Source: Sedimentisphaerales bacterium
Lineage (GTDB): Bacteria > Planctomycetota > Phycisphaerae > Sedimentisphaerales > SM23-30
Reading direction: 5' to 3'
DNA length: 40,572 nt
Assembly: GCA_016934515.1 (NCBI GenBank)
Contig: JAFGSR010000013.1
Coordinates: 1-40,572 of the forward strand
Below the pieces are notes generated by a model. That model was not told where the DNA came from. It did not search any database and saw only the letters and a program-made list of their open reading frames with translations. Of this stretch, positions 3,274 to 29,519 are shown one piece after another. How positions within the stretch are numbered: position 1 is the stretch's first letter; each line of letters starts with the position of its first letter. The position numbers and the translations under genes were made by a program.

Positions 3274-4677
3274 TTAGAGTGAATTAATCTTTTTCTCTAA
3301 TTGGCTCGGTACCGACTTGATGCCTTCCTGGTGCTGCTGAACCAGCTTGTTGATCTGGGCCAGCACCTCCGGATGATCCTGGGCAACATCGAACTTTTCC
3401 GCCGGGTCGTGGTCCAGATGAAACAACAAAGGCGGATCGTGCTCTTTTCGGTCGTTTTTGTAGCCGGACTGGGTAATATAATGAGCCTTCCAGGGTCCTT
3501 GCCTCACTGCGAACAATTTTTCCCCACGGTAATAAAACATCTCCTGCCGCTTACCTGCCCCATCGCCCAGCAACATCCCAGCCATGCTCACGCCGTCAAT
3601 TACCCGGTCCCGGGGCAAATCCACCCCGGCCAAATCCAAAAACGTCGCAAAAATATCCATCGTGCCGGCCAATTCTCGATTAACAGTCCCGGCCTTAACT
3701 CGTCCAGGCCACCAGGCCAGGCCGGGCTCCCGCATGCCCCCTTCCCAGGTGCTGCCCTTGCCGCCCCGGAGTAAGCCCGCCGAACCGCCGTGTAATTTTT
3801 TCGTCAGCCACGGACCGTTATCACTGGTAAACATCACGAGCGTATTTTCGGCTAGGTTTAATCGCCGCAGCGTATCCATAATTTTGCCTACGCTCCAATC
3901 CAGTTCTTCAACAACATCGCCATAAAGCCCCCGCCGACTTGTGTCCTTAAATTTATCCGAGGCAAACAACGGAACATGCGGAAAAGAGTGAGCCATATAC
4001 AAAAAAAACGGTTCTGTGCGGTGTTGTTCAATAAACGCCTTGGCCTTGGCGGTGTAACGTCGGGTCAAGGTTTGCTGCTGCACCGGCTGCTCAATTATCT
4101 TTTCGCCTTCCATCAAAATGCTGGGTTTCATGTCGTTGCTGTAAGGGATGCCGTAATAGCTGTCGAATCCCCGACGAGTTGGCAAAAACTCCGGCAAATG
4201 GCCCAGATGCCATTTACCAATACAACCAGTTGCATAATCCTTACTCTTCAATGCCCCGGCGATTGTAATTTCCTCAGCAGGCAGCCCCCCCGCTGAATTC
4301 GGGAACAGCACCCGTCGTTTGTTACTGCACATGCCATTACGGATGGGTAACCGCCCGGTCATCAGAGCCGCCCGGCTCGGCGTGCAAACCGACGCAGCTG
4401 AATAAAATTGGGTAAACTTCATCCCCTCGGCCGCCATCCGATCCAGATTCGGTGTTGAAATTGTCGGATGACCAAAACAACCCGCATCACCATAACCCAT
4501 GTCATCCGCGAAAATCACTACAAAATTCGGCTGTTTCTGTCGTTGTCGCCCTGCCGTTCCGAAGGAGTTCTTCGACTTATCATTGACACAGCCGGGCACA
4601 TTCCCCATCAATCCCGCCAGCCCAGCCCCACCCAAACCAAAACGCGCAGACTTTTTCAAAAATTCTCGACGATTCAT
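3274..4677 (-). CDS. Sulfatase (arylsulfatase-type, Cys-type fGly site) with Tat-like signal
   Basis: VVIFADDMGYGDAGCFGHP metal site; CTPSRAALMTGR (CxPxR) sulfatase signature; GKWHLG. RREFLKK twin-Arg start favours the ATG at 4677 over the longer track ORF start (4746). Confidence 0.93.
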   Translation of the reverse strand: MNRREFLKKSARFGLGGAGLAGLMGNVPGCVNDKSKNSFGTAGRQRQKQPNFVVIFADDMGYGDAGCFGHPTISTPNLDRMAAEGMKFTQFYSAASVCTPSRAALMTGRLPIRNGMCSNKRRVLFPNSAGGLPAEEITIAGALKSKDYATGCIGKWHLGHLPEFLPTRRGFDSYYGIPYSNDMKPSILMEGEKIIEQPVQQQTLTRRYTAKAKAFIEQHRTEPFFLYMAHSFPHVPLFASDKFKDTSRRGLYGDVVEELDWSVGKIMDTLRRLNLAENTLVMFTSDNGPWLTKKLHGGSAGLLRGGKGSTWEGGMREPGLAWWPGRVKAGTVNRELAGTMDIFATFLDLAGVDLPRDRVIDGVSMAGMLLGDGAGKRQEMFYYRGEKLFAVRQGPWKAHYITQSGYKNDRKEHDPPLLFHLDHDPAEKFDVAQDHPEVLAQINKLVQQHQEGIKSVPSQLEKKINSL

Positions 4678-4767
4678 GCAACACCTCGCTTGTATATAAT
4701 TTTGGGTGCTAAATTTTCCTAATGGTTCGAATTGTGCAGCTATCAATAAAATCCTGTTGGTTTTCGA

Positions 4768-5805
4768 TTAGCGCAAAGTGAAATAACCGTGCCCGATCAG
4801 GTCGTAAACCTGCTCTTCGACAATTTGCATCTCTGCCTGGGCAAAAATTTCGCGCCACTGCTGCGCCGTGCCGATCTGCTGATTGCTCAACTGATGAAAC
4901 AAATGGTGCTCCAGCGATGCCGTTGGGTGTTTTTTCAGCCAGGCCTGATCCTGCAAACAAAACTCCCCCACCACAAACATCGTCCCGGCGAATCGCTCTT
5001 TCAATCCCTTCAACAAGTTCACTAACTGCTCCGGCTGTTGTATATATTCATGAAAAGTATCGCAGGCCGTTACGCAGTCAACGCCCTGCACCTCGCTCGG
5101 CAACTCCGGCAAATCGAACATGTCTCCCGTCTGCGCCGTCAATCTACCGCCGCAATCATCCCGGCTCAATTGCTTCAGACAAAAATCCACCATTTCCTGC
5201 GAACAATCAATCCCATGCCCGCGAATCTGCTCATCCATCCCGCAGAGCCCCCGCAAAAAAGCCATATCGCCGCAACCCAGATCCAGCACCATCCGTCGGC
5301 GGTGCTCGATCACCATCCGCCGCATCACTGGATAAGGTAACTGCTCACAGAGCCGCCCACTACCAATGCCCACGTAAGTAATGTTGCGGGTCAGATCACG
5401 TCCGTATTTTTTTCGACCAGCCAGCAAATCGCCCAGATTGCCAAAACAAGGCTCATAAGCCCACAACAACTCCACCATCCCCCGGGGCTCGGCCATCAAC
5501 ACCTTACCCTCCGGGGCCAGGCTCACTCGGTCACCCTGCTGGTGCAAAAAACCGATGCCGTCCAGATATTCCACCACCGCCGCCAAAACTTCCGGTTCAC
5601 ACGAATGGTCGCGGGCAAATTCGCTTTGCAGCACTTGGCCTTTCTGCTCCAACTCGTCCAGAAAACCACAATCCAGCAATGCCCACCAACTGCTGCAGGC
5701 CGCGTAGCCTCGTACCGTCTTGAGGCCCTGCTCATGATGCTTCTTCATCCGCGCCGCCCGGCGCAGCCCCAACAAACGTATTACTCTTAGAATTTGTCTC
5801 AGCAT
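4768..5805 (-). CDS. Class I SAM-dependent methyltransferase with N-terminal winged-helix-like region
   Basis: MVLDLGCGDMAFLRGL (SAM-binding motif I), GHGIDCSQEMVDFC, GVDCVTACDTFHEY; N-terminal region resembles the dimerisation/winged-helix domain of small-molecule methyltransferases. Confidence 0.8.
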   Translation of the reverse strand: MLRQILRVIRLLGLRRAARMKKHHEQGLKTVRGYAACSSWWALLDCGFLDELEQKGQVLQSEFARDHSCEPEVLAAVVEYLDGIGFLHQQGDRVSLAPEGKVLMAEPRGMVELLWAYEPCFGNLGDLLAGRKKYGRDLTRNITYVGIGSGRLCEQLPYPVMRRMVIEHRRRMVLDLGCGDMAFLRGLCGMDEQIRGHGIDCSQEMVDFCLKQLSRDDCGGRLTAQTGDMFDLPELPSEVQGVDCVTACDTFHEYIQQPEQLVNLLKGLKERFAGTMFVVGEFCLQDQAWLKKHPTASLEHHLFHQLSNQQIGTAQQWREIFAQAEMQIVEEQVYDLIGHGYFTLR

Positions 5806-7484
5806 TAATCCAAATCTTTCGGCTCATTATACAAATAACGATGTTTAAATTGTTCTCGTCGGCCGCCCCTGGCCCGGAGCAACTGTTCATCACGTTTGAT
5901 CAGGAAGCCGCTCGGCACCTGCCGAATGTCCAGTTTCCCCAGTCGCCCGCTTTCCTGTTTCGCATCATATTCAATATTGCTCATTTGCAAGCGACGATCA
6001 ATAAGTTCAGCCAGATGGCGCAGATCACCCTGCGGCAACGCCGCGGCCGCGGCCGACTCAAAATAAAACCGATACCTTGGCGGATCATCCCATTGCGGCA
6101 TCATCACAAAAGTATCGATTCGGATAGCCAGATCGTCCGATGCCCGATGCACCGCCTCAACCACCTGCCTTTCCGTCAGTTTTTCCCCGGTAATACTGCT
6201 GCTATGCGCCCCCTTGGACAAAAACTCCACCACCGGCGTTTCTTTTACAAAATCCACTACCCGAACCAGATCCCCGATGTTATAGCGATACAAACCCGCC
6301 CAGTTGGTCAAAAATATATAATAGCATTTGCCTTTTTCGAGTTGACAGCCCTGCAGCGGCGTTACGCCTTCATCAATAATTTTTCTGCTATCAACATCGG
6401 CAATGCTATCCATTTCTTCCTGAGGCACAAATTCATAGAAGTTGCTCGTAATATCCAGCACGCCTGCGGCGGTGTTGTCCTCGAGCGGAATGCTCATCCG
6501 CCCCTCGCTGGCCAATAGCCCGATGTCCCTGATCGGTACCGCCCCGTAATACTCCAGCAGCCGCGGCATATACATCCCCAGCGTACCGCCGGTCCAGTTG
6601 GCCAGGAAAGATAAATCCCAGAAATCCCTCGGCAAAAGCCGGCCTTCATCCCGCAAAATCTCCTCCAGTTGCCCCGCCCGCCCCGGACGCTTGGGTAATC
6701 TGCCCCGCAACTTATTGCGTAATGACCGGGAAACCGAAACTTTTTCATCCAACGTGCCATCATGCACATCCCGAATCAGCCGATCAGCTTCACGTTCGGC
6801 CGTTTGAGCCAGCGTCAAAGCCGTGCTCGGATTGGCCGTGCTGATAAATGCCACATCTTCGATTATCGCCAAACGCATAATCGTATAATACTTGTCCGCA
6901 GCATTTTCAATCTCCGCAACTTCGCAAGGCGTTACATAATACTTCCGCACAATATAACGCTGATGCTGGGCCAGCATCCCCGAAATCGCCCCGCACGGAA
7001 TCCCGCTTTCCGTCACCTGCTCACGGGCCGAACTGGTAACCTGCAAAATCTTGCGCAAATAACTGCCCGGATGATCCGATATCGCCTTGATCCCCCAAAT
7101 ATCCCAGCCTCGCCGATAATTTTCCAGAAATTTCTTCGTAACCGGAATAAACTTCGCCGCTGAAGTTGTCCCGCTGGTAAGGGCGAACATCAAAATTTTC
7201 TGATCACCGCCAAACAACGCACTCGTCTGCCCCCGCTTGCACTTTTCTATATAAGGCTCAACATAAGAATAGTTACTCAGGGGAACCGACTTGACAAAAT
7301 CGTCGTAATTGCTAATTTTGTCAAAACCATGCTGTCGGCCGAATTCACTCGACTCGTTAGCAGACAAAATCTGCTTCAACAACTGAGCCTGCACCTCACG
7401 ACAACAATCAAGTTTCTTTTCAAATTGTCTTAGACGACGCGCTGTCGCCTTTGATACCCAAAACCCTATCAGCTTACTTATCAT
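5805..7484 (-). CDS. GH3-family (auxin-responsive promoter family) acyl-adenylating / amido-synthetase-like protein
   Basis: 559 aa; FALTSGTTSAAKFIPVTKKF, LLASEGRMSIPLE, NWAGLYRYNIGDLVRVVDF, GEKLTERQVVEAVHRA are GH3-family motifs. Confidence 0.9.
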   Translation of the reverse strand: MISKLIGFWVSKATARRLRQFEKKLDCCREVQAQLLKQILSANESSEFGRQHGFDKISNYDDFVKSVPLSNYSYVEPYIEKCKRGQTSALFGGDQKILMFALTSGTTSAAKFIPVTKKFLENYRRGWDIWGIKAISDHPGSYLRKILQVTSSAREQVTESGIPCGAISGMLAQHQRYIVRKYYVTPCEVAEIENAADKYYTIMRLAIIEDVAFISTANPSTALTLAQTAEREADRLIRDVHDGTLDEKVSVSRSLRNKLRGRLPKRPGRAGQLEEILRDEGRLLPRDFWDLSFLANWTGGTLGMYMPRLLEYYGAVPIRDIGLLASEGRMSIPLEDNTAAGVLDITSNFYEFVPQEEMDSIADVDSRKIIDEGVTPLQGCQLEKGKCYYIFLTNWAGLYRYNIGDLVRVVDFVKETPVVEFLSKGAHSSSITGEKLTERQVVEAVHRASDDLAIRIDTFVMMPQWDDPPRYRFYFESAAAAALPQGDLRHLAELIDRRLQMSNIEYDAKQESGRLGKLDIRQVPSGFLIKRDEQLLRARGGRREQFKHRYLYNEPKDLD

Positions 7485-7590
7485 TGCTCAAGTTACCAGC
7501 TTTCGCTGGACCGGATTCGCCGCGATCCACAGGAAATTTCGACGCTCCCGTTGGTCGCTACGGCTTTCGGAAACAGCGAAATACAAAATC

Positions 7591-8940
7591 CTATACATTC
7601 AACTTATCCCCAACCGGCACAAGTTTTCCCGACTTCTTTCCGACTGTACCAGTTTGCTCTGCCAAACTGGTTTTCCCCGATGCACAGAATGTTCCCGCCG
7701 AACCGGATTTTCCGGTCGCCTTGTTGCTGCGGCAATCCGTATTACAATTGGCCGCAAAAAATTGCCGCGCCGCCTGCAATTCTTCCTGGGCCACCGCCCG
7801 GGGCTTACCGCCGGACCCACCAACTCCAAGATACTTATTAAAAAACTCCACCGATCGCGTTTTATAAAGCTCCGGCTCCTGCACCACCGATTGATTGTGT
7901 CCGGCCTGCGGCACTACCCACAAATAATGTGGTTCATGCGACAATTTATAAAAAGTTTCCGCTTGCTCGAACATTATCATCGAGTCCTTTCGGCCGTGAA
8001 TAAAAAACAACGCTTGATTACGCAAATGACCTACCGACTTACGCAACGACGGAAAACGACACCTAAAACGCACTCGCGCAAACTTCAACAAAAGCCAGCG
8101 CAAAAAATGCCAAAATGCCGGACGATGGTTCTCGTAAACAAAACGTACCCGCGCGAAAATGTGAACCCATTTCTGCATTGACCATTCCACCGTCGTGTCG
8201 GTCGAATATGCCCCATCCGACAACACCGCTTTGATCCCGCAATCGTCCGGCATCTGCGCCACCGCCATCAATGCCGCCCCTGCTCCCCGCGAAATACCGA
8301 ACAAACCGATATTCACATCTAAACCACGCGCTTCCAGTTCCGATTTAACAAAAGCCAAAGCTCCCTGACAATCAGAAATCTCCTTATCCGTGCACCACAG
8401 CCGAGGCTGATAACCATTTAAACTGCTGCTGCTCCCGTGCGAACGAAAATCAAACGAAAAAATATCAAACCCCGCCTCCAGCAGACCGCGACAATAACGC
8501 ATGCAACTGTACATGTCCGAGCCATATTCATGACAAAAAACAATCACGCCGCGACTCTGAGCAGATACATACCCACTATGGAAATCCTCCCTAATCCAAT
8601 CATTTACCGAGCTTTCCCGTGGAAATTGCCCCCGCACACCGAAATCGCCTGATTCTATCCGACTACCTTTCTCGCCCCGGAGTATCGTCGGACTCAAAAA
8701 CATCCCCCGCAACAGCGTCCCGTCAAAAGCGCGAAAATTAACCTGCTCACCTTGGAGCCGCTCATAATCTATCGGCCCCATCATCGGCGGCAAAGGCGTG
8801 TCCCGCACAATATTCAGCATCAGCCGGACATACTTACTCAGCAACGCCGCCACCGACAAAACCGCCAGCAACAACGCCGCCGAAATCAGCATACCCCAGT
8901 TATCCATAATTGAATCAAACATGATCGCCAACCAGAACAA
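7591..8940 (-). CDS. Alpha/beta hydrolase, N-terminal membrane anchor
   Basis: Nucleophile elbow GLFGISRGAGAAL, YGSDMYSCMRYCRGLLEAGFDIFSFDFRSHGSS, FIHGRKDSMI, AGHNQS; N-terminal hydrophobic segment; low-complexity C-terminal tail. Confidence 0.85.
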   Translation of the reverse strand: MFWLAIMFDSIMDNWGMLISAALLLAVLSVAALLSKYVRLMLNIVRDTPLPPMMGPIDYERLQGEQVNFRAFDGTLLRGMFLSPTILRGEKGSRIESGDFGVRGQFPRESSVNDWIREDFHSGYVSAQSRGVIVFCHEYGSDMYSCMRYCRGLLEAGFDIFSFDFRSHGSSSSLNGYQPRLWCTDKEISDCQGALAFVKSELEARGLDVNIGLFGISRGAGAALMAVAQMPDDCGIKAVLSDGAYSTDTTVEWSMQKWVHIFARVRFVYENHRPAFWHFLRWLLLKFARVRFRCRFPSLRKSVGHLRNQALFFIHGRKDSMIMFEQAETFYKLSHEPHYLWVVPQAGHNQSVVQEPELYKTRSVEFFNKYLGVGGSGGKPRAVAQEELQAARQFFAANCNTDCRSNKATGKSGSAGTFCASGKTSLAEQTGTVGKKSGKLVPVGDKLNV

Positions 8941-8966
8941 GAGTCACCCGGTCAGAACGAAACTTG

Positions 8967-10292
8967 CTATCCAGCATATTTTTGCAATATTACCGTGTTA
9001 TTCTGGCCCCCAAATCCAAAGGAATTAGACATAACAACATCCACTTTGGCTTTGCGAGGAACGTTCGGTACATAATCCAGATCCAACTCCGGGTCCGGAT
9101 TTTCCAGATTAATCGTCTGCGGCAAAATCTGATCCCGAATCGCCAGCACACAAGTAATAAACTCCACCACACCTGCCGCCGCAATCAAATGCCCCAGCAT
9201 GCTTTTGACGCTGCTGACCGGAATCTTATACGCCTGCCCGCCAAAAACGGCCTTGATTACTAAAGTCTCAATGGAATCATTCTCGCGGGTCCCTGTGCCG
9301 TGCGAACTGATATAATCAATGTCAGTCAGCCCCATCCCCGCGTCCGCCAAAGCCAGTTTCACCGCACTGATACCGCCGCGACCTTCTTCATGCTGATCCG
9401 TAATCCGAAACGCATCGGCTGTACTGCCGTAGCCCACAATTTCGGCCAGAATCTTCGCGCCGCGGGCCTGAGCACTTTCCAGACTTTCCAAAATTACCGC
9501 CCCGGCACCCTCGGACAATACAAATCCATCCCGATCCCGCTCAAAAGGCCGCGACGCACCCTTGGGATTGTCGTTACGCGTCGATAAAGCTGTCAAACGA
9601 TTGAATCCCGTAAGACCCAGGGGATGAATCATCGAATGCGTTCCGCCGGCCAACATAACGTCCGCATCACCGTTGCGAATCAACTCCAACGCCTGACCAA
9701 TCGCCTGGGTACTGGCTGCACAAGCCGTCAAACAACTCAGACAAGGACCACGCAACTTGAACAACTGCGACAGATGGGCGCCCGGCATGTTCGGCTCCTG
9801 CTCCAGTTCTCGCACCTTATCCATCCGCGACAAAGCAACCTGAGACCATTTCGACCAGTTAACATCCTTAGCTTCACTATCCCAGCCTTCCACTAACGCT
9901 GCTATAAATTGCTCAAAATCCAACGGTCCTTCACCAGCTCCCAGATAAATCCCCACCCGATCCGCAGCCGGCACCGATGGACCCGAGTTCTGCCCATCCA
10001 GATTGTCCGGTAATCCCGCCTGACGCCAAGCCTGCAACGCCGCCCCAATCATGAATCCGCTGTTGCGACCCGACAACCTGTGGCTCTCAACCACCTCTGC
10101 CGGCACCGCCGCCATCGGATCATAATCCCGAACCTGGCCCGAAAACTGCGTCGGAAAGGTACTGGCGTCAAACAAATCGGTCTTGGCAACACCGCTGTTG
10201 CCTGCCAAAATGCTCTGCCACATCTGCTCAACATCCGCACCCAAAGGCGTTACCACGCCCATCCCGGTTATCACTACTCGACGACATTCCAT
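8967..10292 (-). CDS. Beta-ketoacyl-ACP synthase (FabF/KS-alpha-like), catalytically complete
   Basis: Active-site Cys in LTACAASTQAIGQA, His in SSHGTGTREND, K/H in SVKSMLGHLIAAAG, SNSFGFGGQN. Confidence 0.93.
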   Translation of the reverse strand: MECRRVVITGMGVVTPLGADVEQMWQSILAGNSGVAKTDLFDASTFPTQFSGQVRDYDPMAAVPAEVVESHRLSGRNSGFMIGAALQAWRQAGLPDNLDGQNSGPSVPAADRVGIYLGAGEGPLDFEQFIAALVEGWDSEAKDVNWSKWSQVALSRMDKVRELEQEPNMPGAHLSQLFKLRGPCLSCLTACAASTQAIGQALELIRNGDADVMLAGGTHSMIHPLGLTGFNRLTALSTRNDNPKGASRPFERDRDGFVLSEGAGAVILESLESAQARGAKILAEIVGYGSTADAFRITDQHEEGRGGISAVKLALADAGMGLTDIDYISSHGTGTRENDSIETLVIKAVFGGQAYKIPVSSVKSMLGHLIAAAGVVEFITCVLAIRDQILPQTINLENPDPELDLDYVPNVPRKAKVDVVMSNSFGFGGQNNTVILQKYAG

Positions 10293-10355
10293 CTGGACCT
10301 CTTATATTTATCGCTTTTTCGTTTACGTTGTTTTCAAGCAAAACTTCACTGATTT

Positions 10356-11681
10356 TCACTCAGAAAACTTGCTTAACGACATAGCCGCGGTCTGACCGCC
10401 GTACGTATAACTGCTGCACACGGCATTTTGCATTGCCACCTGCCGCACTTCATCGCCGCCCAGCTTTAACCCGCATTCAACCAAAGGCTTTTCACAATTC
10501 ACCATCGGGGCCACCTTGCCATCGGTCAGCGCCAGCACCGTCGAAACAAAATCGATTGCCGCCGCTCCCGCCCCACAATTGCCCACCCGGCTTTTGGTAA
10601 CCTGAACCTCAAGCTCCCGGGCATGATCGCCAAAGGCATTCACAATCGCTCTGGCTTCAGCCTGATCGTCACTCAGAACTCCCAAACCGTGCGGCACCAG
10701 CAAATCAACCTGATCAGGCGAAAGACCACCACCCTGCAAAGCCTTTTCAATCGCAATCGTTATCCCCCGGGCATTAGGTTCAGGTGTAACAAAATCATCA
10801 CTGAAATTACAAGACACTCCAAAACCGGTTATCTCCGCGTAAATCTTCGCTCCCCGGCTTCGAGCTTGCTCCAACTCCTCCAGCACCACAATCCCGCCCC
10901 CTTCGCCCAGTACCGTACCATCCGCTTCCTGGTCAAAAGGCCGACAAGATTCTTTCGGTCGATCGTTATATTTCGTACTCAACCGGCCTTGCAAACTCTG
11001 ACGAACCAGACTCAACGGATTTATCTTGCATTCCGCACCGCCGGCCACCATCACGTCCGCCCGATCCCGCTTAATCGTCAGATACGCTTCACCAATCGAC
11101 AGCAAACCCGAAATTTCCGCACAGGTAATCGAATTGTTCGGCCCCTGAAAATCATGAATAATACTCACGTGGCAGCCCAGCATATTCGGCAAATACTTCA
11201 ACAGCCACAACGGCGTCAATTGTTCCATCCCCTCGCCGCCCCACTTGCTTAGACTGAACTTGCCATCCTCGATAGCGTGTTCCACCGCCGAGCCTAATTC
11301 CACCAGGTCACAACAGATCAGCCCGGCACCGATAATCACTCCGCTACGCGTCGGTTCTATCCCAACCGCTTCGCCATCATTTACCGTTCCTCTGGTCTTC
11401 AGCCCCGCGTCCCGAACAGCTCCGTCCGCCGCAACCACCGCCAGTTCAATATCTCGCGACATCAACTTGGTCGCTTTACGATGAAACTTGGGTACCAGCT
11501 TGTTAACCTTGATTTCGCCCACTTCCCCCCCCACCTGACAGCCAAACTCAACCGGATCAAATCCACCAATCCGATCGATCCCTACTGCCCCGGCCAGCAT
11601 CCCCTGCCAGAAAGCGTCCCGGTCATTGCCCAGTGCCGAACTTATTCCCAGTCCCGTTACTACTACTCGACGATCTGCCAT
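10356..11681 (-). CDS. Beta-ketoacyl synthase homologue with degenerate active site (chain-length-factor/KS-beta-like)
   Basis: KS fold motifs (MVAGGAECKINPLS, GTVLGEGGGIVVLEE) but the catalytic Cys position is Glu (GPNNSITCAEISG) and the second His is Asn (TKSRVGNCGAG). Confidence 0.88.
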   Translation of the reverse strand: MADRRVVVTGLGISSALGNDRDAFWQGMLAGAVGIDRIGGFDPVEFGCQVGGEVGEIKVNKLVPKFHRKATKLMSRDIELAVVAADGAVRDAGLKTRGTVNDGEAVGIEPTRSGVIIGAGLICCDLVELGSAVEHAIEDGKFSLSKWGGEGMEQLTPLWLLKYLPNMLGCHVSIIHDFQGPNNSITCAEISGLLSIGEAYLTIKRDRADVMVAGGAECKINPLSLVRQSLQGRLSTKYNDRPKESCRPFDQEADGTVLGEGGGIVVLEELEQARSRGAKIYAEITGFGVSCNFSDDFVTPEPNARGITIAIEKALQGGGLSPDQVDLLVPHGLGVLSDDQAEARAIVNAFGDHARELEVQVTKSRVGNCGAGAAAIDFVSTVLALTDGKVAPMVNCEKPLVECGLKLGGDEVRQVAMQNAVCSSYTYGGQTAAMSLSKFSE

Positions 11682-11757
11682 GATTTCTCACTAGATTTCA
11701 AAAAAGCCTGATTATTTTTTAGGCCGCAAATATCAAAATTGCCGCGTTCAGCCGCAA

Positions 11758-12240
11758 TCATTCTTTGGCGCTGTCCACCTTGTAGCCCCGCAACAAATCC
11801 ATAAACTGATCATTATCAAACACAAAATTCTCTTCCGGAAATTCCATCCCGCCCATATTCTGATCGATGTGACTGAACATCAATCCGATCTCCGCCAACA
11901 ATTCATCTCCGCGGGTAATGCGCCCGCTTATCGTCGCCGCCTCGGCGGCCAGGTTCTCCACCGTCGCCTCCAGCCGCAACTGATCCCCCGGACGAGCCTC
12001 CATGTAAAAAATCGCCTTGTTCACCTTGGCCAGAATCACCTTCTCCTTAAAATCCCGCGCCTCTCCCACCAGTATCCCGCTCGTCTGGGCCATCGCCTCG
12101 ATCAGCAACGGCGCCGGCATCACCGGATATCCCGGAAAATGATCGTGCAGGTGCTCCTCTGCCATGCTCACGTTCTTGATCGATACCGCGCGCTTGCCCG
12201 ACTCAAACTCCACAAACTTATCTATCCATATCCAACGCAC
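11758..12240 (-). CDS. FabZ/FabA-like (hotdog) 3-hydroxyacyl-ACP dehydratase
   Basis: HLHDHFPGYPVMPAPLLIEAMAQTSGIL hotdog active-site motif. Confidence 0.88.
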   Translation of the reverse strand: MRWIWIDKFVEFESGKRAVSIKNVSMAEEHLHDHFPGYPVMPAPLLIEAMAQTSGILVGEARDFKEKVILAKVNKAIFYMEARPGDQLRLEATVENLAAEAATISGRITRGDELLAEIGLMFSHIDQNMGGMEFPEENFVFDNDQFMDLLRGYKVDSAKE

Positions 12241-12375
12241 TTAGCAACCTCAATCCGCAGCTTGTTAATCTTACAGAACCGCAAAATAACTCCCCCGCGC
12301 AGCACCAAACCTCGGCGCAGCCAAATCAGCAGATACCAGGTTAAAACCTGACACCCCAAACCGGCAAAAGCATGT

Positions 12376-12798
12376 TTAGCTATTCACTTTGCCTTCGATA
12401 TAGTTAATTATGGATTTAACCTGGAACAAATCCGGAATCTTATTCAGATCAGGATCTTTCTCGAACTCTGTAAAATCGACGTGAGGCATCGAACTCTTCA
12501 ACTGAGCCACACCCACTTCGGTCAGTTTGCCGTCGCTTACCAGATCAGGGTTGTTTTGCAGATTCTCTGCCGGAAACAACTCTTCCCGGGGAATCTTAAT
12601 CCCAAACGACTTCTCCAGTTGAAACACAATATCCAGAAAATCAATGCTCTCCGCACCCAGGTCGCCCATCAAGGTCGCGCCTTCCGATATCTCATCGTCA
12701 TCAACTCCCAGGGCTTCAACCAGAATTTCACTTACCTTGTCGTATATTTCCTCACGACTCATCGACATAATTGCTTTACCTCCAGCTAATCTTGACAC
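12376..12798 (-). CDS. Acyl carrier protein, elongated atypical form
   Basis: MSREEIYDKVSEILVEALGVDDDEISEGATLMGDLGAESIDFLDIVFQLEKSFGIKIP; predicted phosphopantetheine Ser in GAESID; extra segment of about 40 aa before the last helix. Likely start is one of the internal Met codons (MSMSREE). Confidence 0.92.
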   Translation of the reverse strand: MSRLAGGKAIMSMSREEIYDKVSEILVEALGVDDDEISEGATLMGDLGAESIDFLDIVFQLEKSFGIKIPREELFPAENLQNNPDLVSDGKLTEVGVAQLKSSMPHVDFTEFEKDPDLNKIPDLFQVKSIINYIEGKVNS

Positions 12799-13301
12799 GC
12801 ACCTACCAGTTTGGCACGATGTTTCATTTCAATAATTATTCGCTCGTCAACTTCCGCCCAGTCGGCGTTTTGTTCCGACAAATTAAAATGCTTCAATTTC
12901 AGCCGGGCTTCTACCGTCGGCGTATCGTCAACATAACCGCTACCCACAAAGCTGCTTTCGCCGGCTTCAATTTTTTTGGCCACCAGTTCCATCCGCAATA
13001 TATTGCCCGGCTTGACAAAACTCTTGTATTTTATATTCCGCGCTTCCCGCATAACAATCACACTCTGGGAAAAATTATTGGTCACTCGAACCAGCATCGC
13101 CGCGGATTGTACCAATGCTTCGAGCATCATCACCCCCGGCAGCACCGGGAACGTCGGAAAATGATCCGCCAGATATTCCTCCCCCAGCGACAAAGCCTTC
13201 ACCGACGAGATCTTCTCACCCGGCACCAGTTCCGTCACTTTATCCAGTAATATAAATCGCATTTGTTCTCCCGCCGCCATCCTTACTCTGGCGACCATCA
13301 C
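12786..13301 (-). CDS. FabZ/FabA-like (hotdog) 3-hydroxyacyl-ACP dehydratase
   Basis: EEYLADHFPTFPVLPGVMMLEALVQSAAMLV hotdog active-site motif. Confidence 0.87.
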   Translation of the reverse strand: MMVARVRMAAGEQMRFILLDKVTELVPGEKISSVKALSLGEEYLADHFPTFPVLPGVMMLEALVQSAAMLVRVTNNFSQSVIVMREARNIKYKSFVKPGNILRMELVAKKIEAGESSFVGSGYVDDTPTVEARLKLKHFNLSEQNADWAEVDERIIIEMKHRAKLVGACQD

Positions 13302-13432
13302 GGCTATATTTAACGACTCAACAGCCTTTTGTCAATTGGCTGCTTATTCACCCCGAATAATCACAGCCGGGCTGGAACATATCAATATCAAGATGATTTG
13401 TCAATCCAACAAAACCAACCGAGTTTGTCCGA

Positions 13433-14539
13433 TCAAACCAGCGAAATCAGACGCTCAATTCCCTTGGCGATCATTTCATCACTGGTTGCGTAACTGAGCC
13501 TGAAATGACTGTCCTGTTCCGAAAACACCGATCCCGGTATCACCAGCACGTCATTTTTAATCGCTTTTTCCACAAAAGCCGTCGCGTCGCCGCCCGGAGC
13601 CGCTACAAATGCGTAAAACGCCCCTTCCAGCTTGACCAAATCGAATTTATCCTTCAATCCGTCATAAATCATATCCCGTTTTCGATGGTAATCCGCAATA
13701 TGACCCGAAATATCACATTGCAAAGCTGCCATCGTCGCCAACTGAAACGGATGCGGAGCACACACAAACGTGTACTGCTGCAACGTCGCCATCGCATCGG
13801 CCAAACCTGACAAATGCTCCGGAACCGCCACATAACCCAGCCGCCACCCCGGCACCCCGTAACACTTCGAAAAACTCCGCATTACCATCGTATTTTCGTA
13901 GTAATGACCGATGCTGTCCGCTTGCCCGTCATAAGTAAATTCCCGGTAGATCTCATCCGAAAGCACCAACAAATCCCTTCGCTGGGCAAATCCCGCAATC
14001 TCTTTCAATCGCTCAGTCTGGTACAAAACACCCGTCGGATTCGCCGGCGAATTAACAAAAAGCACCTTGCTCTTAGCGTCCGCCGCCTTGTCCAGCCGCT
14101 CACAGGTCAATCCAAAATCCGGATAAGTGTTCACAAACTGACATTTCCCCCCGTTCAGATTCACCAGGTGACGATAACTCACAAAGTAAGGATCCGGAAT
14201 CAGCACACCATCCCCGGCATTCACCGTCGCCATTAACGACAACGTCAACGCCCCGCTCAATCCGCAGGTAATTAACACCGATGGATTCGACCAGCCAAAT
14301 TCCCGGCTGATTCGCCCGGCCAACTCCTCGCGCAACTGGGCCAAACCTGACGTAACCGTGTAGCCCGACTTATCCGATTCAATCGCCTCAATCGCGGCAC
14401 GCTTCATCTCGGCTGGAGCACCAAAATCCGGCTCTCCAATACTGAAGTTCACCGGGTCTTTCATCGTCGCCGCCATCTGCCATATCCGGCGTATGCCCGA
14501 CGCTTCTATACAATCCAATCTCTCCGCGATGTAATCCAT
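13433..14539 (-). CDS. PLP-dependent class I/II aminotransferase (aspartate aminotransferase-like)
   Basis: NSPANPTGVLY, LVLSDEIYREFTYDG, MRSFSKCYGVPGWRLGY (PLP Lys), HFRLSYATSDE. Confidence 0.93.
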   Translation of the reverse strand: MDYIAERLDCIEASGIRRIWQMAATMKDPVNFSIGEPDFGAPAEMKRAAIEAIESDKSGYTVTSGLAQLREELAGRISREFGWSNPSVLITCGLSGALTLSLMATVNAGDGVLIPDPYFVSYRHLVNLNGGKCQFVNTYPDFGLTCERLDKAADAKSKVLFVNSPANPTGVLYQTERLKEIAGFAQRRDLLVLSDEIYREFTYDGQADSIGHYYENTMVMRSFSKCYGVPGWRLGYVAVPEHLSGLADAMATLQQYTFVCAPHPFQLATMAALQCDISGHIADYHRKRDMIYDGLKDKFDLVKLEGAFYAFVAAPGGDATAFVEKAIKNDVLVIPGSVFSEQDSHFRLSYATSDEMIAKGIERLISLV

Positions 14540-15127: not shown

Positions 15128-16324
15128 TCAACGTCCGACTTTTCCCGTTATCGACTCATCCTTCACCGGAAAAGCCGACGAAAAAGTGCTCGGATTAAAC
15201 GGCGTAGCGCCTCGGGGCTTTTCACTGTTGTATTTAGCTCCTAACTCCTTAACCTTAGCTTTTAGCTCACTCAGCTTGGCATCGCTGCTGCTCGAAGCTG
15301 AATAACCCGAATACAGCACCCATCGACTGCTCTGTTTGCCTATTCCGGTCATAATCCCTTTTTTATTAAAATATTCCTGCACCGCTACCAGATCACGCTG
15401 ATTAGTCGATCCGCACAAAATCAACCGCCAACCACCGTTTTGCGTCGTAACTCCTGGTGCAGTCCGGCCGGCACCGCCGGCCGGTGTATTCGTAGCAGCA
15501 CGGGTGGTTCCGCTTCCCGTTGCGGCTCCCGGCGAAGTTGCAACTCCCGACCCGCCCGGAAGCGCGCTCTCATAACGAGCACCGCTTCGGCCCGAATCTG
15601 ACCCAACAGCACGATTGCCCGAACCTGCTCCCGACGCCGTATCCTTCGTACCCGGCCGATCCCAAACGTCCGGACGCGCCGGAACCGAACCCAAATCCGC
15701 CGTTGATCCATCACCGCCTTGCCCTGTACCGCCCGGGCCCGCTGCAGAACTATCTATCAAACCGGCCTGATTCATAGCCGCGTTTTTCCCGCTATGCTGG
15801 CCAATACGATATATTACACCCATCACAAACAACAAACCCAGCAACACCACGCATCCCACCCATAATGGAAAAAGCAGACTGATTTTCCGGTCTTCCATAC
15901 CAAAAGAAAATTCTTTTGCCTCCTCATCTTTCGCCTGGGCCGATTGGTCTTCCAAACCCAAATTACCCAATCGCTTGCCGAACGCCATGCCACTCGGGGT
16001 CGATACCTTCGCTCCAACACCCGAAATCGCCGACGAATCAGCCAAAACTGGCTGCTTCTCAACCTGCTGACCGGCCTGCCCCGACGTTGAACCGGGCTGC
16101 TCAACTTGCACCTTAGCTGGCTGCTTTACCGTCTGCGGTATAAATGGCTTACCCGATACCGTCTTCGGCACCGCTATCGCCTGGACTCCCGCACGCATCG
16201 GTTCGGTCTTTCTTTTCTGGCCATAAAACCACTTCGGCGTCTCTATTGAACCTCGACCATCTGGCTTTAACGGCCCCTTTCCTATCAATTCATACAACGC
16301 CGGTTTGTCTTTTTTGCCTGCCAT
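15128..16324 (-). CDS. Single-pass membrane protein with low-complexity Gly/Ser/Ala linker and C-terminal SPOR-like domain
   Basis: TM segment ISLLFPLWVGCVVLLGLLFVMGVIY; repetitive GS-rich linker; C-terminal GGWRLILCGSTNQRDLVAVQEYFNKKGIMTGIGKQSSRWVLYSGYSASSSSDAKLSELKAKVKELG is SPOR-like. Confidence 0.65.
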   Translation of the reverse strand: MAGKKDKPALYELIGKGPLKPDGRGSIETPKWFYGQKRKTEPMRAGVQAIAVPKTVSGKPFIPQTVKQPAKVQVEQPGSTSGQAGQQVEKQPVLADSSAISGVGAKVSTPSGMAFGKRLGNLGLEDQSAQAKDEEAKEFSFGMEDRKISLLFPLWVGCVVLLGLLFVMGVIYRIGQHSGKNAAMNQAGLIDSSAAGPGGTGQGGDGSTADLGSVPARPDVWDRPGTKDTASGAGSGNRAVGSDSGRSGARYESALPGGSGVATSPGAATGSGTTRAATNTPAGGAGRTAPGVTTQNGGWRLILCGSTNQRDLVAVQEYFNKKGIMTGIGKQSSRWVLYSGYSASSSSDAKLSELKAKVKELGAKYNSEKPRGATPFNPSTFSSAFPVKDESITGKVGR

Positions 16325-20149: not shown

Positions 20150-20893
20150 ATGTCTGAAAAACGCCTGGCAATCGTAACCGGAGGCGCCCGTGGTATCGGT
20201 CGCGCCATCGTCCATGAGCTCATCAAACAGGGACGCAAGGTTGCCGCCCTCGACGTCAACGAAGAACGACTCAACGAACTCGCCGACCTGGCCAAAAATC
20301 AGTGGAAAACCGATGACGTCATCACCCTCAAAATCGACATCACCAATTCCAAAGCACTCACCCAGGCCATCGAAAATCTCGCCGAAGAACACGGCGGCAT
20401 CGGCATCCTCGTCAACAACGCCGGCATCACCCGTGACGGCCTGCTGCTAACCATGTCCGACGAGGATTTCGATCTCGTCATCGACATCAACCTCAAAGCC
20501 GCCTTCGTCGCCACCCGCGCCGCCGCCAAATCCATGATGCGCAATCGCTGGGGACGCATCATCAACATCGCCAGTGTCGCCGGGGTCATGGGTAACGCTG
20601 GGCAGACCAATTACGCCGCCAGCAAAGCCGGTCTCATCGGCATGGCCAAAACCGTCGGCCGAGAACTCGCCAAACGCAATGTCACCGCCAATTGCATCGC
20701 TCCCGGATTCATCGTCACCGAAATGACCGATGTCCTGCCCGACAAGGTCAAAGAAGGCGTCAAACAGATCGTTCCCATGCAAAAACTCGGCCAGGTCGAG
20801 GATGTCGCCTCCGCCGTAGCCTTCCTCGCTTCTGATGCCGCCGGATACGTCACCGGTCAGGTAATCTGCGTCGATGGCGGCATGGCTATGTAA
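20150..20893 (+). CDS. fabG: 3-oxoacyl-ACP reductase
   Basis: VTGGARGIGRAIVHEL; NNAGITRD; INIASVAGVMGNAGQTNYAASKAG; PGFIVTEMT; GQVICVDGGMAM. Confidence 0.96.
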   Translation: MSEKRLAIVTGGARGIGRAIVHELIKQGRKVAALDVNEERLNELADLAKNQWKTDDVITLKIDITNSKALTQAIENLAEEHGGIGILVNNAGITRDGLLLTMSDEDFDLVIDINLKAAFVATRAAAKSMMRNRWGRIINIASVAGVMGNAGQTNYAASKAGLIGMAKTVGRELAKRNVTANCIAPGFIVTEMTDVLPDKVKEGVKQIVPMQKLGQVEDVASAVAFLASDAAGYVTGQVICVDGGMAM

Positions 20894-21185: not shown

Positions 21186-22352
21186 GTGAACGAACCTGAT
21201 AGAAACATCGACAAAAAATCCCGGGTAACCGTTGTTATACCAACCTATAACGCAGCGGATTATATCGGCGCTGCCATCCAGAGCGCCCTGCAGCAGTCTT
21301 TTGAGGATTTTGAACTGCTCGTCCTCGATAATGTCTCCACCGACAACACCGCTGATATTGTCGCTCGTTTCAACGATCCTCGCCTGCATTACCGGACCAA
21401 TGAACAAAATATCGGGTTTTTAGGGAACGCCAACCTCGGTCTCTCACTGGCCCGCGGGGAGTATTTAACCTACCTCGGTGCCGATGATATCTGGGAAAAG
21501 GACTTTCTCCTCCAGGCCGTCGCCCTGATGGACAACAATCAGGAACTGAGCTTCGTCCACGGGTCAGCACTCTGGATCGACGAAAAAAGCCAACCCTTTG
21601 GCGGCACCGACGATCGCTGGCAGCTTATCACCGACGGAAACAAAGCCTTCGTTGACACCTTCCGCTACGGCTTCTGTTTCTCCACCATGCTCATGCGCAC
21701 CGAAACCGCCCAACGCATCGGTCCACTGCCCCAGGACTGGGGTGATCTGGCCGATACCTGGCTTTTTCTACGCATGGCACTGGAAGGCGATGTCGGGTAT
21801 CTTTTTCAGACCCTGGTTCTCTATCGCGTGCACAAGGAAAGCCTATCCCTCGCCTGGTATAAAAACGGTAAACTCTTCCTTAGGCATCTGGAATTGGCCC
21901 GCGAAGTTTTTAACTGGGAACGCTCTCGGCAGGTCGGCGTCGATCGGCATAAACGCAAAGGCTTACGCGCCGTCGCTCTTCAATCGGTTACCATGATGCC
22001 CATTATCAGAAATGACGGTTCCCGCCGAGCACTTTTGAAAACTCTGGCCGGAATCGTCGCTCAGGTACCCGAAGTGTTGTTTTTTCCCCGAACCTGGCTC
22101 AGAGTCGCCTTTGGGATGCTGCCCCGAAAATGGATCTTCGCTTTACGCAATTTCAAACACCGACGCTGGCAACAGGCTCAGCTAAAAATACAAAACCAAC
22201 AAAAAAATAACCATTGCCCCATCCCGACCAACTCCTCCCTAAACACCCTCATCCCCACTGGTTTCAGCCAAACCACTTCCTGCCCGACCAACTCCTGCTC
22301 ATGCAGCTCCTGTCTCGGCAACCCCGCTCCGGATAACTCCAGTCAAAATTAA
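21186..22352 (+). CDS. Glycosyltransferase family 2
   Basis: VTVVIPTYNAADYIGAAIQSALQQSFEDFELLVLDNVSTDNTADIV; YLTYLGADDIWEKDFL. C-terminal Asn/Ser/Pro/Cys-rich tail. Confidence 0.92.
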   Translation: MNEPDRNIDKKSRVTVVIPTYNAADYIGAAIQSALQQSFEDFELLVLDNVSTDNTADIVARFNDPRLHYRTNEQNIGFLGNANLGLSLARGEYLTYLGADDIWEKDFLLQAVALMDNNQELSFVHGSALWIDEKSQPFGGTDDRWQLITDGNKAFVDTFRYGFCFSTMLMRTETAQRIGPLPQDWGDLADTWLFLRMALEGDVGYLFQTLVLYRVHKESLSLAWYKNGKLFLRHLELAREVFNWERSRQVGVDRHKRKGLRAVALQSVTMMPIIRNDGSRRALLKTLAGIVAQVPEVLFFPRTWLRVAFGMLPRKWIFALRNFKHRRWQQAQLKIQNQQKNNHCPIPTNSSLNTLIPTGFSQTTSCPTNSCSCSSCLGNPAPDNSSQN

Positions 22353-22362
22353 GGCTCCTTGC

Positions 22363-23694
22363 ATGGCTGACCGAACCGCAAAAAATTTCCTGCTGGTTAC
22401 CGCCACTCGAATATCGCTTTGGGGTTTGTGGTTCCTGGCTCTTATCCTGATCTATCGCAATCTGGATAAAAACGGCGTCGGACTTTACACAATTTGCTGG
22501 GCCATCATTAAAGTCATGTGGTCCTGCCTGGGTGATCCGCTCGACCTGGCAGTTTTACGCCGGGTACCTATTTATCTCCGCTCCGATCGACCGCGGGCAC
22601 TTAGCATTATCCGTTCGGCTTTTCTGGCCAGAATTGCTTTTGGGGCCGCCGCCTTCGTGACAATTTTGCTGCTCTCGGACAATCTCTCTATCTGGTTTAT
22701 GGATGGAACTGATCCGGGAATATTATTTATTCTCACCGGCTTCGGGGTTATCGGCGATCTGCTGGGCCGGTCGGTCTTGAATTATTTCCAGGCCAACGAG
22801 TTCTTCGGACGCTACGTAATCATCGAAGCCGTTGTTCAGATCGGGCGCTTCCTCTTGATCGTTGTTCTCGCCTCCACTGATACTTTAAACGTACAAAACG
22901 CCGTGGGCAGCTATGTTGTGATGGGGTATGTGGGCTTCTTGGTCGGGGCAGCTATGTTACCCCGAGATGTGTTCGGTAAATCTCTGGCCCATCGGGCGGA
23001 CATGCTCGAAATCTTCCATTACAGCAAATGGATGATCACCGGAATGGTAATTGCCGCTTTGTATGAGAGAATGGATGTGCTGATGATAGGCTTCTTCTAT
23101 TCCAACGCCGAGGTCGGTATCTATCAAGCGGCTTTCCAACTGGCCATGCTGCCCGAACTGCTCATCTGGTGCCTGGCAACCATCTTTTATCCTCGCGTAG
23201 TCGATCTATATCGAACCGGTAAGTTTCTCCACTGGGTCAAAAACTATCTAAAACTCGCTATTCCTCTCGCCGCAATCATCGTTACCGCTGCCTTCCTCTT
23301 GGGAAATATCGTTATCACGTTGATTTATAAAGGACAATTCCCCGAATCCGTTCAACCTTTTTTCCTGCTCGTAACCGGCATGTTTATTTGGCTGATCCTC
23401 ACCCCCCTGCCCATGGCTCTGCTGGCCCTGGTAACGCCCAAAAAAATCGTAGCAATTACCTCGGTCCAATTCGTTTTGATGTTTGGCGGCGGTTTGCTGC
23501 TGATCGGACAGTTCAGTTTTATCGGGGCCGCTTATTTGATTTTGTCCGTTCGGGTATTGATCGGAATCGTTATCTTTATCCTCGCCTGGAAGGTTGCCAA
23601 AACCAAAAATCTTGTTAAAATCGACGAATCAACTGTCCTGCCTGAAAATCCTGAACTGGACAGGCAAAACACCATTCTGGAGCAGGCACTTTGA
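22363..23694 (+). CDS. Polysaccharide biosynthesis flippase (Wzx-like, MOP superfamily)
   Basis: 443 aa, about 12-14 hydrophobic segments; RYVIIEAVVQIGRFLLIV; YSNAEVGIYQAAFQLAMLPELLIW pattern. Confidence 0.85.
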   Translation: MADRTAKNFLLVTATRISLWGLWFLALILIYRNLDKNGVGLYTICWAIIKVMWSCLGDPLDLAVLRRVPIYLRSDRPRALSIIRSAFLARIAFGAAAFVTILLLSDNLSIWFMDGTDPGILFILTGFGVIGDLLGRSVLNYFQANEFFGRYVIIEAVVQIGRFLLIVVLASTDTLNVQNAVGSYVVMGYVGFLVGAAMLPRDVFGKSLAHRADMLEIFHYSKWMITGMVIAALYERMDVLMIGFFYSNAEVGIYQAAFQLAMLPELLIWCLATIFYPRVVDLYRTGKFLHWVKNYLKLAIPLAAIIVTAAFLLGNIVITLIYKGQFPESVQPFFLLVTGMFIWLILTPLPMALLALVTPKKIVAITSVQFVLMFGGGLLLIGQFSFIGAAYLILSVRVLIGIVIFILAWKVAKTKNLVKIDESTVLPENPELDRQNTILEQAL

Positions 23695-25157
23695 ACCTTA
23701 AGAAAAAAATCCTGTTCGTCGCAATTGCCTTTACCTTACTGGTGGGGCTGCTCTACTCCCTCCAGGGCGTCAAGGGACTCGCCCTTATCGCCGGTCTGAT
23801 TTTCGCCGCCTACATCTTCAAGCATCCCTTAATAGGGTGTGTCTTGCTGATCTTTTCCGGCACCTGTTTTCAGATTATCGGCAGCTCACACATGACCGGA
23901 CTGCCTCTGAGCCTGCCCAAAATTTTCGGCATTCTCACCCTGGGCAGTTTCATTTATTATTGCTACCGCAATAAACCCGCTTTGACTTATTCGCCTCAGA
24001 TGGCCGCCCTGGGAATCTTCGCCCTGGTCTTTATAGCCTCGGCATTAATTCAGCCCGATAAAGCTAATTCCATGATCGGATTAGCGAAATTCTTCCAGTT
24101 GTATTTATTTTATTTTTTGATCAGTAATCTGGGCGGCATAAACAAAAAATCTTTGTTGATACTTTGCGGAGCCCTGACCATCGCCATCGGAATCTGCGGA
24201 CTGATCGGAGTTATGGAACATTTCTTGCCTGGATTGTCCATCGAATCCGATGATCCCCGACTGGGCCAGGGCGCAATCGGTGCCATTATGGACCGCGAAT
24301 CCATCGCTTCCGGAGACATCAAACGCATCACCGGCGGTCTAGCCGACGCCAACTGGCTCGCTTACACCATCGCCACCGTCCTGCCTCTGACAGTTTTCTG
24401 GTGGCGAAATTTCACCCGGCTCTCTTACCGACTCGTAACCTTCTCTATCATTATTCTGCAATGCCTGGGGATGGTGCTCGCCTATACCCGCGCCGGCATG
24501 CTCGGACTGGGAGTCGCGGTTCTGGTTTTGATAAAAAAGAAACTAATACCCATCGCACCCATGCTGGTTCTGGTGGCTCTCGGTACTTTGGTAGCGCTGG
24601 TTTGGCAGCCGGAAGGTTTTACCGAACGAATTTTTTCAACAAAATATCTCAAAGAAGGCAGCACACCCATGCGCCGGGACCTCTTCAACGCCGCGATTCG
24701 CATGGCCAAAGAAAAACCAATCTTCGGTTACGGCTATGGCAGATTCGGCTACGAATTCATGGATCGCCTTAATACCGATATGCGCATGAGACTCGGAGCC
24801 ATGGGCGCCGATCTCGCTAATGCCATCGAACGCGGCCAGGAACAGGTCCACAACATCGGCGCCCATAGTATGTATCTGGAAGTTGTTGTAGAATATGGTA
24901 TTGTGGGTTTAATCCCTTTTATGGCTTTTTTATGGTTTGTGCTAAAGGATTTGATGCTCGTCCAAAAATTCGGCAATCAATGGCAGGTTGACTTGGCAAT
25001 TTGTTTGTTTGCCGGCGCTATAGCCTTTTATATCTGTGCGTTGTTCGGACACGCAAAAACATTGAAGTGCCTTTGGATTGTTGCCGGCCTGGCAGCGGCA
25101 CTCAGAAGAGTTACCTTTGAAAGCGAAACGCTCGATGCTGACTTCGATGAAGATTAA
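23691..25157 (+). CDS. O-antigen ligase / polymerase-like membrane protein (WaaL/Wzy-like)
   Basis: Polytopic; LGMVLAYTRAGMLGLGVAVLVLI and HSMYLEVVVEYGIVGLIPFMAFLW signature regions. TTG start overlaps the preceding stop (TTGA). Confidence 0.85.
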   Translation: MNLKKKILFVAIAFTLLVGLLYSLQGVKGLALIAGLIFAAYIFKHPLIGCVLLIFSGTCFQIIGSSHMTGLPLSLPKIFGILTLGSFIYYCYRNKPALTYSPQMAALGIFALVFIASALIQPDKANSMIGLAKFFQLYLFYFLISNLGGINKKSLLILCGALTIAIGICGLIGVMEHFLPGLSIESDDPRLGQGAIGAIMDRESIASGDIKRITGGLADANWLAYTIATVLPLTVFWWRNFTRLSYRLVTFSIIILQCLGMVLAYTRAGMLGLGVAVLVLIKKKLIPIAPMLVLVALGTLVALVWQPEGFTERIFSTKYLKEGSTPMRRDLFNAAIRMAKEKPIFGYGYGRFGYEFMDRLNTDMRMRLGAMGADLANAIERGQEQVHNIGAHSMYLEVVVEYGIVGLIPFMAFLWFVLKDLMLVQKFGNQWQVDLAICLFAGAIAFYICALFGHAKTLKCLWIVAGLAAALRRVTFESETLDADFDED

Positions 25158-25179
25158 TCTTTTAACAATCTTAATTTTG

Positions 25180-25208
25180 TAGGGTGGGTAACAAGTTACC
25201 CACGCGGT
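25180..25208 (+). repeat. Extragenic palindrome (gtagggtgggtaacaagttacccacgcgg)
   Basis: Perfect 9-bp stem GTGGGTAAC/GTTACCCAC (25184-25203), 2-nt centre. Confidence 0.75.
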
Positions 25209-25215
25209 TATTGGT

Positions 25216-25342
25216 GATTCACCGTGTCCATTATTGGGGCCAAAAACGAGACGCTAAATAGCCACTTATGCAGACTCACCGTATCCATTAATGATACCGA
25301 AAATGAACGCCGAAATGGGCCGAAAACGAGGCGCTAAATAGC
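25216..25342 (+). repeat. Two-copy imperfect direct repeat (gaYtcaccgtRtccatta ... ggccRaaaacgagRcgctaaatagc)
   Basis: Copy A 25216-25262 and copy B 25273-25342 share both end blocks; copy B has an extra internal segment. Confidence 0.7.
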
Positions 25343-25538
25343 AGTTTTGTCCTTTAAGATAGGTAAGATGTAACGATTATAACGGGCCAAAAATGCGACA
25401 AACGAAAAATTTGTTAAAATTTAGCTTAGAAAACTGTGTGGTTTTTGATGATTTTTAACGAAAGTTACTCCATACTTAGCGGTTTTTTGCAGAAAGTTGG
25501 GAGTAAAAAAAATGGCCTGTCGCGCTTTTGGACCGGTT

Positions 25539-25554
25539 AGTTACACGTGAAACA
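25539..25554 (+). promoter_or_regulatory. parS: Candidate ParB-binding parS site (agttacacgtgaaaca)
   Basis: Matches 14 of 15 specified positions of the widespread chromosomal parS consensus TGTTNCACGTGAAACA; overlaps the putative start of the next ORF. Confidence 0.6.
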
Positions 25555-27869: not shown

Positions 27870-27900
27870 CGAATGACGAAAAGGTGGCGGCAGAGCAGTA

Positions 27901-29362: not shown

Positions 29363-29386
29363 AGTGGACGTCAGAACCGTTCTGTG

Positions 29387-29410
29387 GTCCCTGTGGGGCT
29401 TAGCAGGGAC
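29387..29410 (+). repeat. Inverted repeat (hairpin) downstream of the Nudix gene
   Basis: GTCCCTG-tggggcttag-CAGGGAC, perfect 7-bp stem. Confidence 0.55.
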
Positions 29411-29461
29411 AGATAGTTGAGGAAACGAAACGAATGAAAAGATTGAATTTGACAGAACAAT

Positions 29462-29486
29462 CAGCATGGGCTAAAGCCCATCCTAC
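29462..29486 (+). repeat. Extragenic palindromic repeat, copy 2 (cagcatgggctaaagcccatcctac)
   Basis: 25 bp identical, same orientation, to 1768-1792. Confidence 0.8.
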
Positions 29487-29519
29487 AGCTACCAGCTTCA
29501 ACAGCAGTGAGGGGGCCTA

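Follow-up and report, generated by a model that had tools for sequence, protein, structure and literature searches.

The window analysed here is a 40,572-nucleotide contig (C26; JAFGSR010000013.1, positions 1 to 40,572) of the 4.5 Mb draft genome of a Sedimentisphaerales bacterium, a planctomycete of the class Phycisphaerae. It carries a minus-strand operon in which genes resembling type II fatty acid synthase (FAS) and polyketide synthase (PKS) components, namely two dehydratases (DH1 and DH2), an acyl carrier protein (ACP), a ketosynthase (KS) and a KS paralogue of the chain length factor (CLF) type, are followed by genes for an alpha/beta hydrolase (HYD), a GH3 protein and a methyltransferase (MT). 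A first-pass annotation had placed these eight genes on this strand, and the open reading frames (ORFs) of the window, searched with Pfam and NCBIfam models, confirmed all of their coordinates and families (Table 1). The GH3 and MT genes had been described as abutting at 5805, and the junction indeed reads TAATG, a 1-nt overlap. A second reported overlap, between the ACP and the first dehydratase, disappears if ATG 12768, preceded by a GGAGGT motif, is taken as the ACP start; homologous ACPs start at the equivalent position, and the DH1 stop codon lies at 12788–12786. This ATG is most likely the true start, and the overlap a start-codon artefact. The unit as first drawn was also incomplete, missing an aminotransferase (AT) gene upstream (13433–14539), which we count in the unit because such a gene lies upstream of DH1, and adjoins it, in seven relatives (L084, L109, L110, L111, L113, L114 and L295). 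The promoter-like element in Table 1 comes from a consensus scan of the region that returned 23 matches against 13.4 expected.

Table 1. Genes and other features of the window discussed in the text.
Feature	Position	Strand	Basis
AT, class I pyridoxal phosphate (PLP) aminotransferase, opens the extended unit	13433..14539	-	Pfam Aminotran_1_2
Promoter-like TTGACA-17-TATGTT with TG, upstream of DH1	13376..13404	-	Consensus scan, weak evidence
DH1, FabZ-like hotdog dehydratase	12786..13262	-	FabA-like domain, 57 bits; ATG start preferred, ORF opens at 13301
ACP	12376..12768	-	PP-binding, 43 bits; ATG 12768 preferred over GTG 12798
DH2, another FabZ-like dehydratase	11758..12240	-	FabA-like domain, 55 bits
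CLF, full-length Cys-less KS paralogue	10356..11681	-	Glu189 for Cys, Asn368 for His
KS, intact catalytic residues	8967..10292	-	FabF model, 458 bits (cut-off 494)
HYD, alpha/beta hydrolase with membrane anchor	7591..8940	-	Hydrolase_4; transmembrane segment 16–34; Ser217-Asp319-His348
GH3, adenylate-forming acyl-acid amido synthetase family	5805..7484	-	Pfam GH3 N, M and C domains
MT, S-adenosylmethionine (SAM) methyltransferase, putative alpha-keto-acid C-methyltransferase group	4768..5805	-	Metal ligands H252, H304
FabG, primary FASII set	20150..20893	+	Pfam

The genes DH1-ACP-DH2-CLF-KS form a core whose conservation was assessed across 80 named Phycisphaerae and Planctomycetota loci from a class-level search. 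All five genes were present in 65 of the 80, with contig ends cutting several of the rest, and serS mostly came after the core; the arrangement is thus confirmed as far beyond chance. The catalytic His of DH1 was kept in 71 of 71 sequences, the Glu of DH2 in 80 of 80 (its His in 67 of 81), the phosphopantetheine Ser of the ACP in 75 of 75 and the KS triad in 76 of 76, the window KS having Cys191, His331, Lys363 and His368 intact. In the window CLF, Glu replaces the Cys and Asn the second His; across 83 CLF sequences the Cys position held Glu in 77, Asp in five and Asn in one. KS paralogues without Cys163 were noted in the planctomycete Rhodopirellula baltica in 2009 (PMC2649909), and the Glu163 and Asn333 of its protein NP_866153 (Glu163, His298, Lys328, Asn333; PMC2649909) reproduce the pattern of the window CLF. 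The core ACPs also share a conserved long insert before the last helix, outside the matches to solved ACPs that were found.

A tree of 80 proteins placed KS and CLF in sister clades, both outside the primary FabF clade (ultrafast bootstrap, UFBoot, 96–99 for the latter), which included E. coli FabF and the FabF proteins of genomes G000, G057 and G127. Both were also apart from the E. coli aryl-polyene KS, NodE and the anammox KS pairs, the deeper branches being weakly supported (54–60), which limits placement relative to these outgroups. Both proteins scored below the FabF equivalog cut-off of 493.75 (457.8 for KS and 321.3 for CLF), and the same genome carries a separate primary FabF on contig C4 and a separate FabZ on contig C114. 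The tree bears out the earlier view of a KS/CLF-like pair distinct from FabF and, together with the separate FabF and FabZ, is the basis for rejecting a duplicated primary FASII FabF/FabZ set. The first-pass annotation had named, as the result that would count against it, both KS proteins in primary FabF clades and neighbours not conserved in relatives; both KS-type proteins lie outside, and the neighbours are conserved. Given the breadth of the core and the separation of KS and CLF from FabF, the core is, as judged from its sequences, a second fatty-acid or polyketide line found throughout the Phycisphaerae and not a rare cluster. The reading of the core as a special cluster accordingly does not stand, the lineage-specific part being confined to the hydrolase, GH3 and MT genes, in places with the aminotransferase.

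The core also occurs in other families, with variations in its gene content. FabG is inserted after DH1, between it and ACP, in two relatives (loci L084 and L103; genomes G055 and G031). A genome of another Planctomycetota family (G121) has a DH1-ACP-DH2-KS operon without CLF, its CLF-type genes lying elsewhere, and four loci of family f18 (L092, L093, L095 and L096) show the order DH1-ACP-DH2-KS-KS with both KS triads intact, a tandem that may predate the loss of the cysteine in CLF. In both of the FabG-carrying distant relatives a DUF362/4Fe-4S protein was observed after the core operon (L084:12031–13128 and L103:7011–8135). The earlier statement that the cluster lacks a dedicated ketoreductase (KR) therefore holds for the window operon and fails for L084 and L103, where FabG lies inside the operon. 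Because the window operon has none, the FabG of the primary set is likely lent to the core line. The further step from a missing KR to a polyene product is invalid, since relatives carry an operon FabG and a rhizobial very-long-chain fatty acid locus is likewise without KR.

In the window, a catalytic KS lies next to a full-length CLF without the Cys, as in a KS-CLF type II PKS. The window also shares its discrete KS, full-length Cys-less CLF, ACP and dehydratases with highly reducing type II PKS, polyene KS-CLF systems such as that of ishigamide (Iga11-Iga12), but it lacks the dedicated operon KR of such systems, its KS and CLF fall in planctomycete clades of their own, and its core is near-universal in the class, unlike a secondary-metabolite cluster. 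When plasmids were searched with KS and CLF, most of the matches were FabF and Streptomyces KS genes; a Streptomyces plasmid locus has the order ACP-KR-DH-KS-DH-KS.

The hydrolase and GH3 genes downstream of KS behave as a pair. Among 397 Phycisphaerae genomes, 130 had both, seven only GH3, three only the hydrolase and 257 neither, and 67 of the pairs were adjacent on the same strand with the hydrolase upstream. The order KS-hydrolase-GH3 was found in eight loci (L109, L111, L184, L285, L288, L295, L302 and L318), KS-hydrolase without adjacent GH3 in two (L134 and L298), and hydrolase-GH3 without adjacent KS in four (L263, L266, L289 and L292). Adjacency of KS to the hydrolase, alone or with GH3, covers families f1, f110, f111 and f112, and in G055, from another family, GH3 and MT follow KS. 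The hydrolase has an esterase/lipase fold with a conserved Ser217-Asp319-His348 triad. The GH3 protein contains all three domains (PF03321, PF23571 and PF23572), aligns with plant JAR1 at 116 bits and has the nucleotide-binding motifs TSGTTSAAK, SE and YRYNIGD, with the key residues kept in five of five sequences. The earlier reading of GH3 as the likely amide-forming step is supported.

The MT had been taken for an acyl tailoring enzyme, which is not its best reading, as its nearest solved relatives, 2-ketoarginine methyltransferase and MppJ, act on alpha-keto acids. Its NCBIfam neighbours are 2-ketoarginine methyltransferase (112 bits against a model cut-off of 425) and ApyS, SgvM is also among its relatives, and the top fold matches of its AlphaFold model (mean predicted local distance difference test score, pLDDT, 69) are MppJ and MrsA. 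H252 and H304 are invariant in a four-locus set and align with the His residues of MppJ and MrsA, and their spacing of 52 equals that of H244 and H296 in SgvM. The methyl acceptor of ApyS and MppJ is the beta carbon of an alpha-keto acid (PMC11117315), and SgvM performs alpha-keto acid C-methylation with a metal that its H244 and H296 bind (PMC10502145). By domain layout, fold and the two metal-ligand His residues, all shared with MppJ, MrsA, SgvM and ApyS, the MT belongs with the alpha-keto-acid C-methyltransferases; unlike these enzymes, it is linked to a KS/CLF line and GH3. The biochemistry of this group needs an aminotransferase, and the window operon has one, with PLP residues Lys225, Asp195, Tyr198 and Arg347 kept in eight of eight sequences. 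The MT was seen only in loci that also contain the aminotransferase, the core and GH3 (the window, L109, L111 and L084). Taken together, the relatives of the MT, its conserved His ligands and the aminotransferase with its PLP residues suggest that the two enzymes make a beta-methyl amino acid. In L134, an amino acid permease gene (5057–7201) was observed between the aminotransferase and DH1; it would fit an amino acid substrate.

The pathway proposed here is one whose steps we infer from results obtained by sequence comparison: family identities, active-site residues, separation from FabF, core conservation and hydrolase-GH3 coupling. The KS and CLF would pair up as a heterodimer and elongate the chain carried on ACP, borrowed FabG would carry out ketoreduction, and DH1 and DH2 would dehydrate, leaving unsaturated or partly reduced units unless a housekeeping enoyl reductase acts. 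OlsH, a characterised GH3 enzyme, makes N-acyl amino acids from free fatty acid and ATP and needs neither ACP nor CoA (PMC12493201); with such an input, the ACP-bound chain requires a releasing enzyme, and the membrane-anchored hydrolase would free the acyl acid. GH3 would then adenylate this acid with ATP and attach it to an amino acid at the amino group. The aminotransferase and MT would supply that amino acid by conversion of an amino acid to its alpha-keto acid, C-methylation and re-amination to a beta-C-methyl amino acid, with an N-acyl-(beta-methyl)amino acid lipid as the expected product. That the locus combines a planctomycete secondary type II FAS/PKS line with a lineage-added, amide-forming release module leading to such a lipid is, in our judgement, evenly balanced between right and wrong. 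We put forward more tentatively, at somewhat below even confidence, that this is a new aminolipid route in which a KS-CLF product is hydrolysed off its carrier and joined by GH3 to a beta-methylated amino acid from the same operon.

Several observations weigh against this pathway. In many genomes GH3 and the hydrolase are unlinked from the core, and the acyl substrate may therefore not always be the core product. L084 has GH3 and MT without the hydrolase, and L295 has the aminotransferase without MT. The Fisher value for hydrolase and GH3 co-occurrence (1e-91, in a pattern covering 13 families) ignores shared ancestry. The MT set comprises only four loci, its fold matches come from a model with the mean pLDDT of 69 given above, and the MT superfamily includes O-methyltransferases.

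If correct, the pathway would be the first known case of a type II PKS/FAS line released through a GH3 ligase; a literature search found no KS-CLF system with GH3 release. It would also add a third context for GH3 enzymes, besides ornithine lipids and the conjugation of plant hormones, and would predict a class of lipid-amino-acid compounds in sediment and water bacteria that are abundant yet chemically almost unknown. The proposal also offers a testable role for the planctomycete Cys-less ketosynthase paralogues, described in 2009 as lacking an explanation, and ties them to the hydrolase-GH3 pair, which about one in three of the Phycisphaerae genomes examined retains.

The main rival explanation draws on the OlsH-OlsG-OlsI operon of the planctomycete Singulisphaera acidiphila, which likewise encodes a GH3 protein, a SAM methyltransferase and an alpha/beta hydrolase (PMC12493201). 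By analogy, GH3 would attach a 3-hydroxy acid made by the core to the nitrogen of an amino acid, the hydrolase would be an O-acyltransferase adding a second chain, and the MT would N-methylate the head group. The three-enzyme make-up equals that of Sinac_1599-1601, and OlsI, its alpha/beta hydrolase, has been demonstrated to work as an O-acyltransferase (PMC12493201); the hydrolase-GH3 coupling in the window lineage is consistent with such a pathway, and the membrane anchor of the hydrolase suits a lipid acyltransferase. We nevertheless consider this explanation unlikely. The window GH3 reached 101.8 bits against the OlsH model cut-off of 620 and fell in a separate clade; compared with the set from genome G873, which is consistent with S. 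acidiphila (526-aa GH3, published motif TSGTTQGATK), it was 28% identical to OlsH over the N-terminal part only. The hydrolase gave no phmmer or hmmsearch match to OlsI (hhalign probability 9.7), and the MT, of 345 aa, had no similarity to the 192-aa OlsG detectable with phmmer or hmmsearch (BLASTP E 1.3); its relatives methylate the carbon of alpha-keto acids, not amines. The S. acidiphila operon, unlike the window, is without the KS/CLF/ACP/DH core, and no hydrolase was seen in the neighbourhoods of OlsH-like GH3 genes in other genomes. With the OlsH cut-off missed, a different GH3 clade and partners that are not homologous, membership in the OlsH/OlsI/OlsG system is rejected; on these comparisons the gene make-up matches the Ols operon, but the parts are not of the same families.

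Rather improbable, in our view, is that the core makes a structural fatty acid of the membrane or outer membrane, and that the GH3 part merely adjoins it in one lineage. The class-wide occurrence of the core, mostly followed by serS and without GH3, would agree with this, and a study of Planctopirus limnophila describes a group of five KS paralogues as wholly essential (PMC10632474), which would suit a structural lipid. The rhizobial acpXL-fabZXL-fabF2XL-fabF1XL-adhXL-lpxXL locus offers a precedent, its AcpXL-FabZ-FabF2-FabF1 part comprising a dedicated ACP, a dehydratase and two KS proteins without KR (PMC11901934), as in the window. That locus, however, has one dehydratase and adds alcohol dehydrogenase and lipid A acyltransferase genes, and none of the neighbouring ORFs that were scanned with Pfam proved to be a homologue of adh or lpxXL. 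The lack of the Cys in one of the two KS paralogues and the recurrence of KS-hydrolase(-GH3) adjacency in four families, with GH3-MT after KS in G055, also argue against a structural role with a chance neighbour.

An aryl-polyene or ladderane locus, or a plain duplicate of the primary FAS genes, is very improbable. The window shares KS, CLF, ACP, DH and MT gene types with aryl-polyene and ladderane loci, but its CLF is full length at 441 aa, whereas the aryl-polyene counterpart has roughly half the length of a KS (240 aa in E. coli CFT073). In the tree, KS falls outside the aryl-polyene and anammox KS groups, the ORFs scanned include no radical SAM or phytoene-desaturase-like genes, and primary FabF and FabZ are located elsewhere in the genome. 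Aryl-polyene membership is rejected on CLF length and the KS tree, and ladderane membership on the scanned gene content and the separate grouping of the anammox KS pairs. Compared with the E. coli aryl-polyene locus, the window operon has one ACP instead of two and no KR, MMPL transporter or acyltransferase genes. The first-pass remark that the resemblance to both types of loci is only partial is supported.

Upstream of the aminotransferase, positions 15128–16324 encode a conserved protein without a Pfam match, which also precedes the aminotransferase in the closest relatives (L109–L111, L113, L114 and L295). An arylsulfatase gene (3274–4746) lies on the same strand 21 bp downstream of MT; it was rejected as a cluster member, being absent between MT and serS in L109 and after MT in L111, and beta-propeller proteins occupy this place in both relatives. 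The coding strand switches at about 16.6 kb, and between 20001 and 28000 the GC skew changes sign near 25–27 kb, from about −0.25 to +0.40, for which an origin, a terminus, an acquired segment or an assembly join are all possible. After the primary PlsX-FabH-FabD-FabG genes, positions 21186–40257 hold a surface-polysaccharide cluster with glycosyltransferases, a flippase, an O-antigen ligase, a polysaccharide deacetylase, a bacterial sugar transferase and Wzz.

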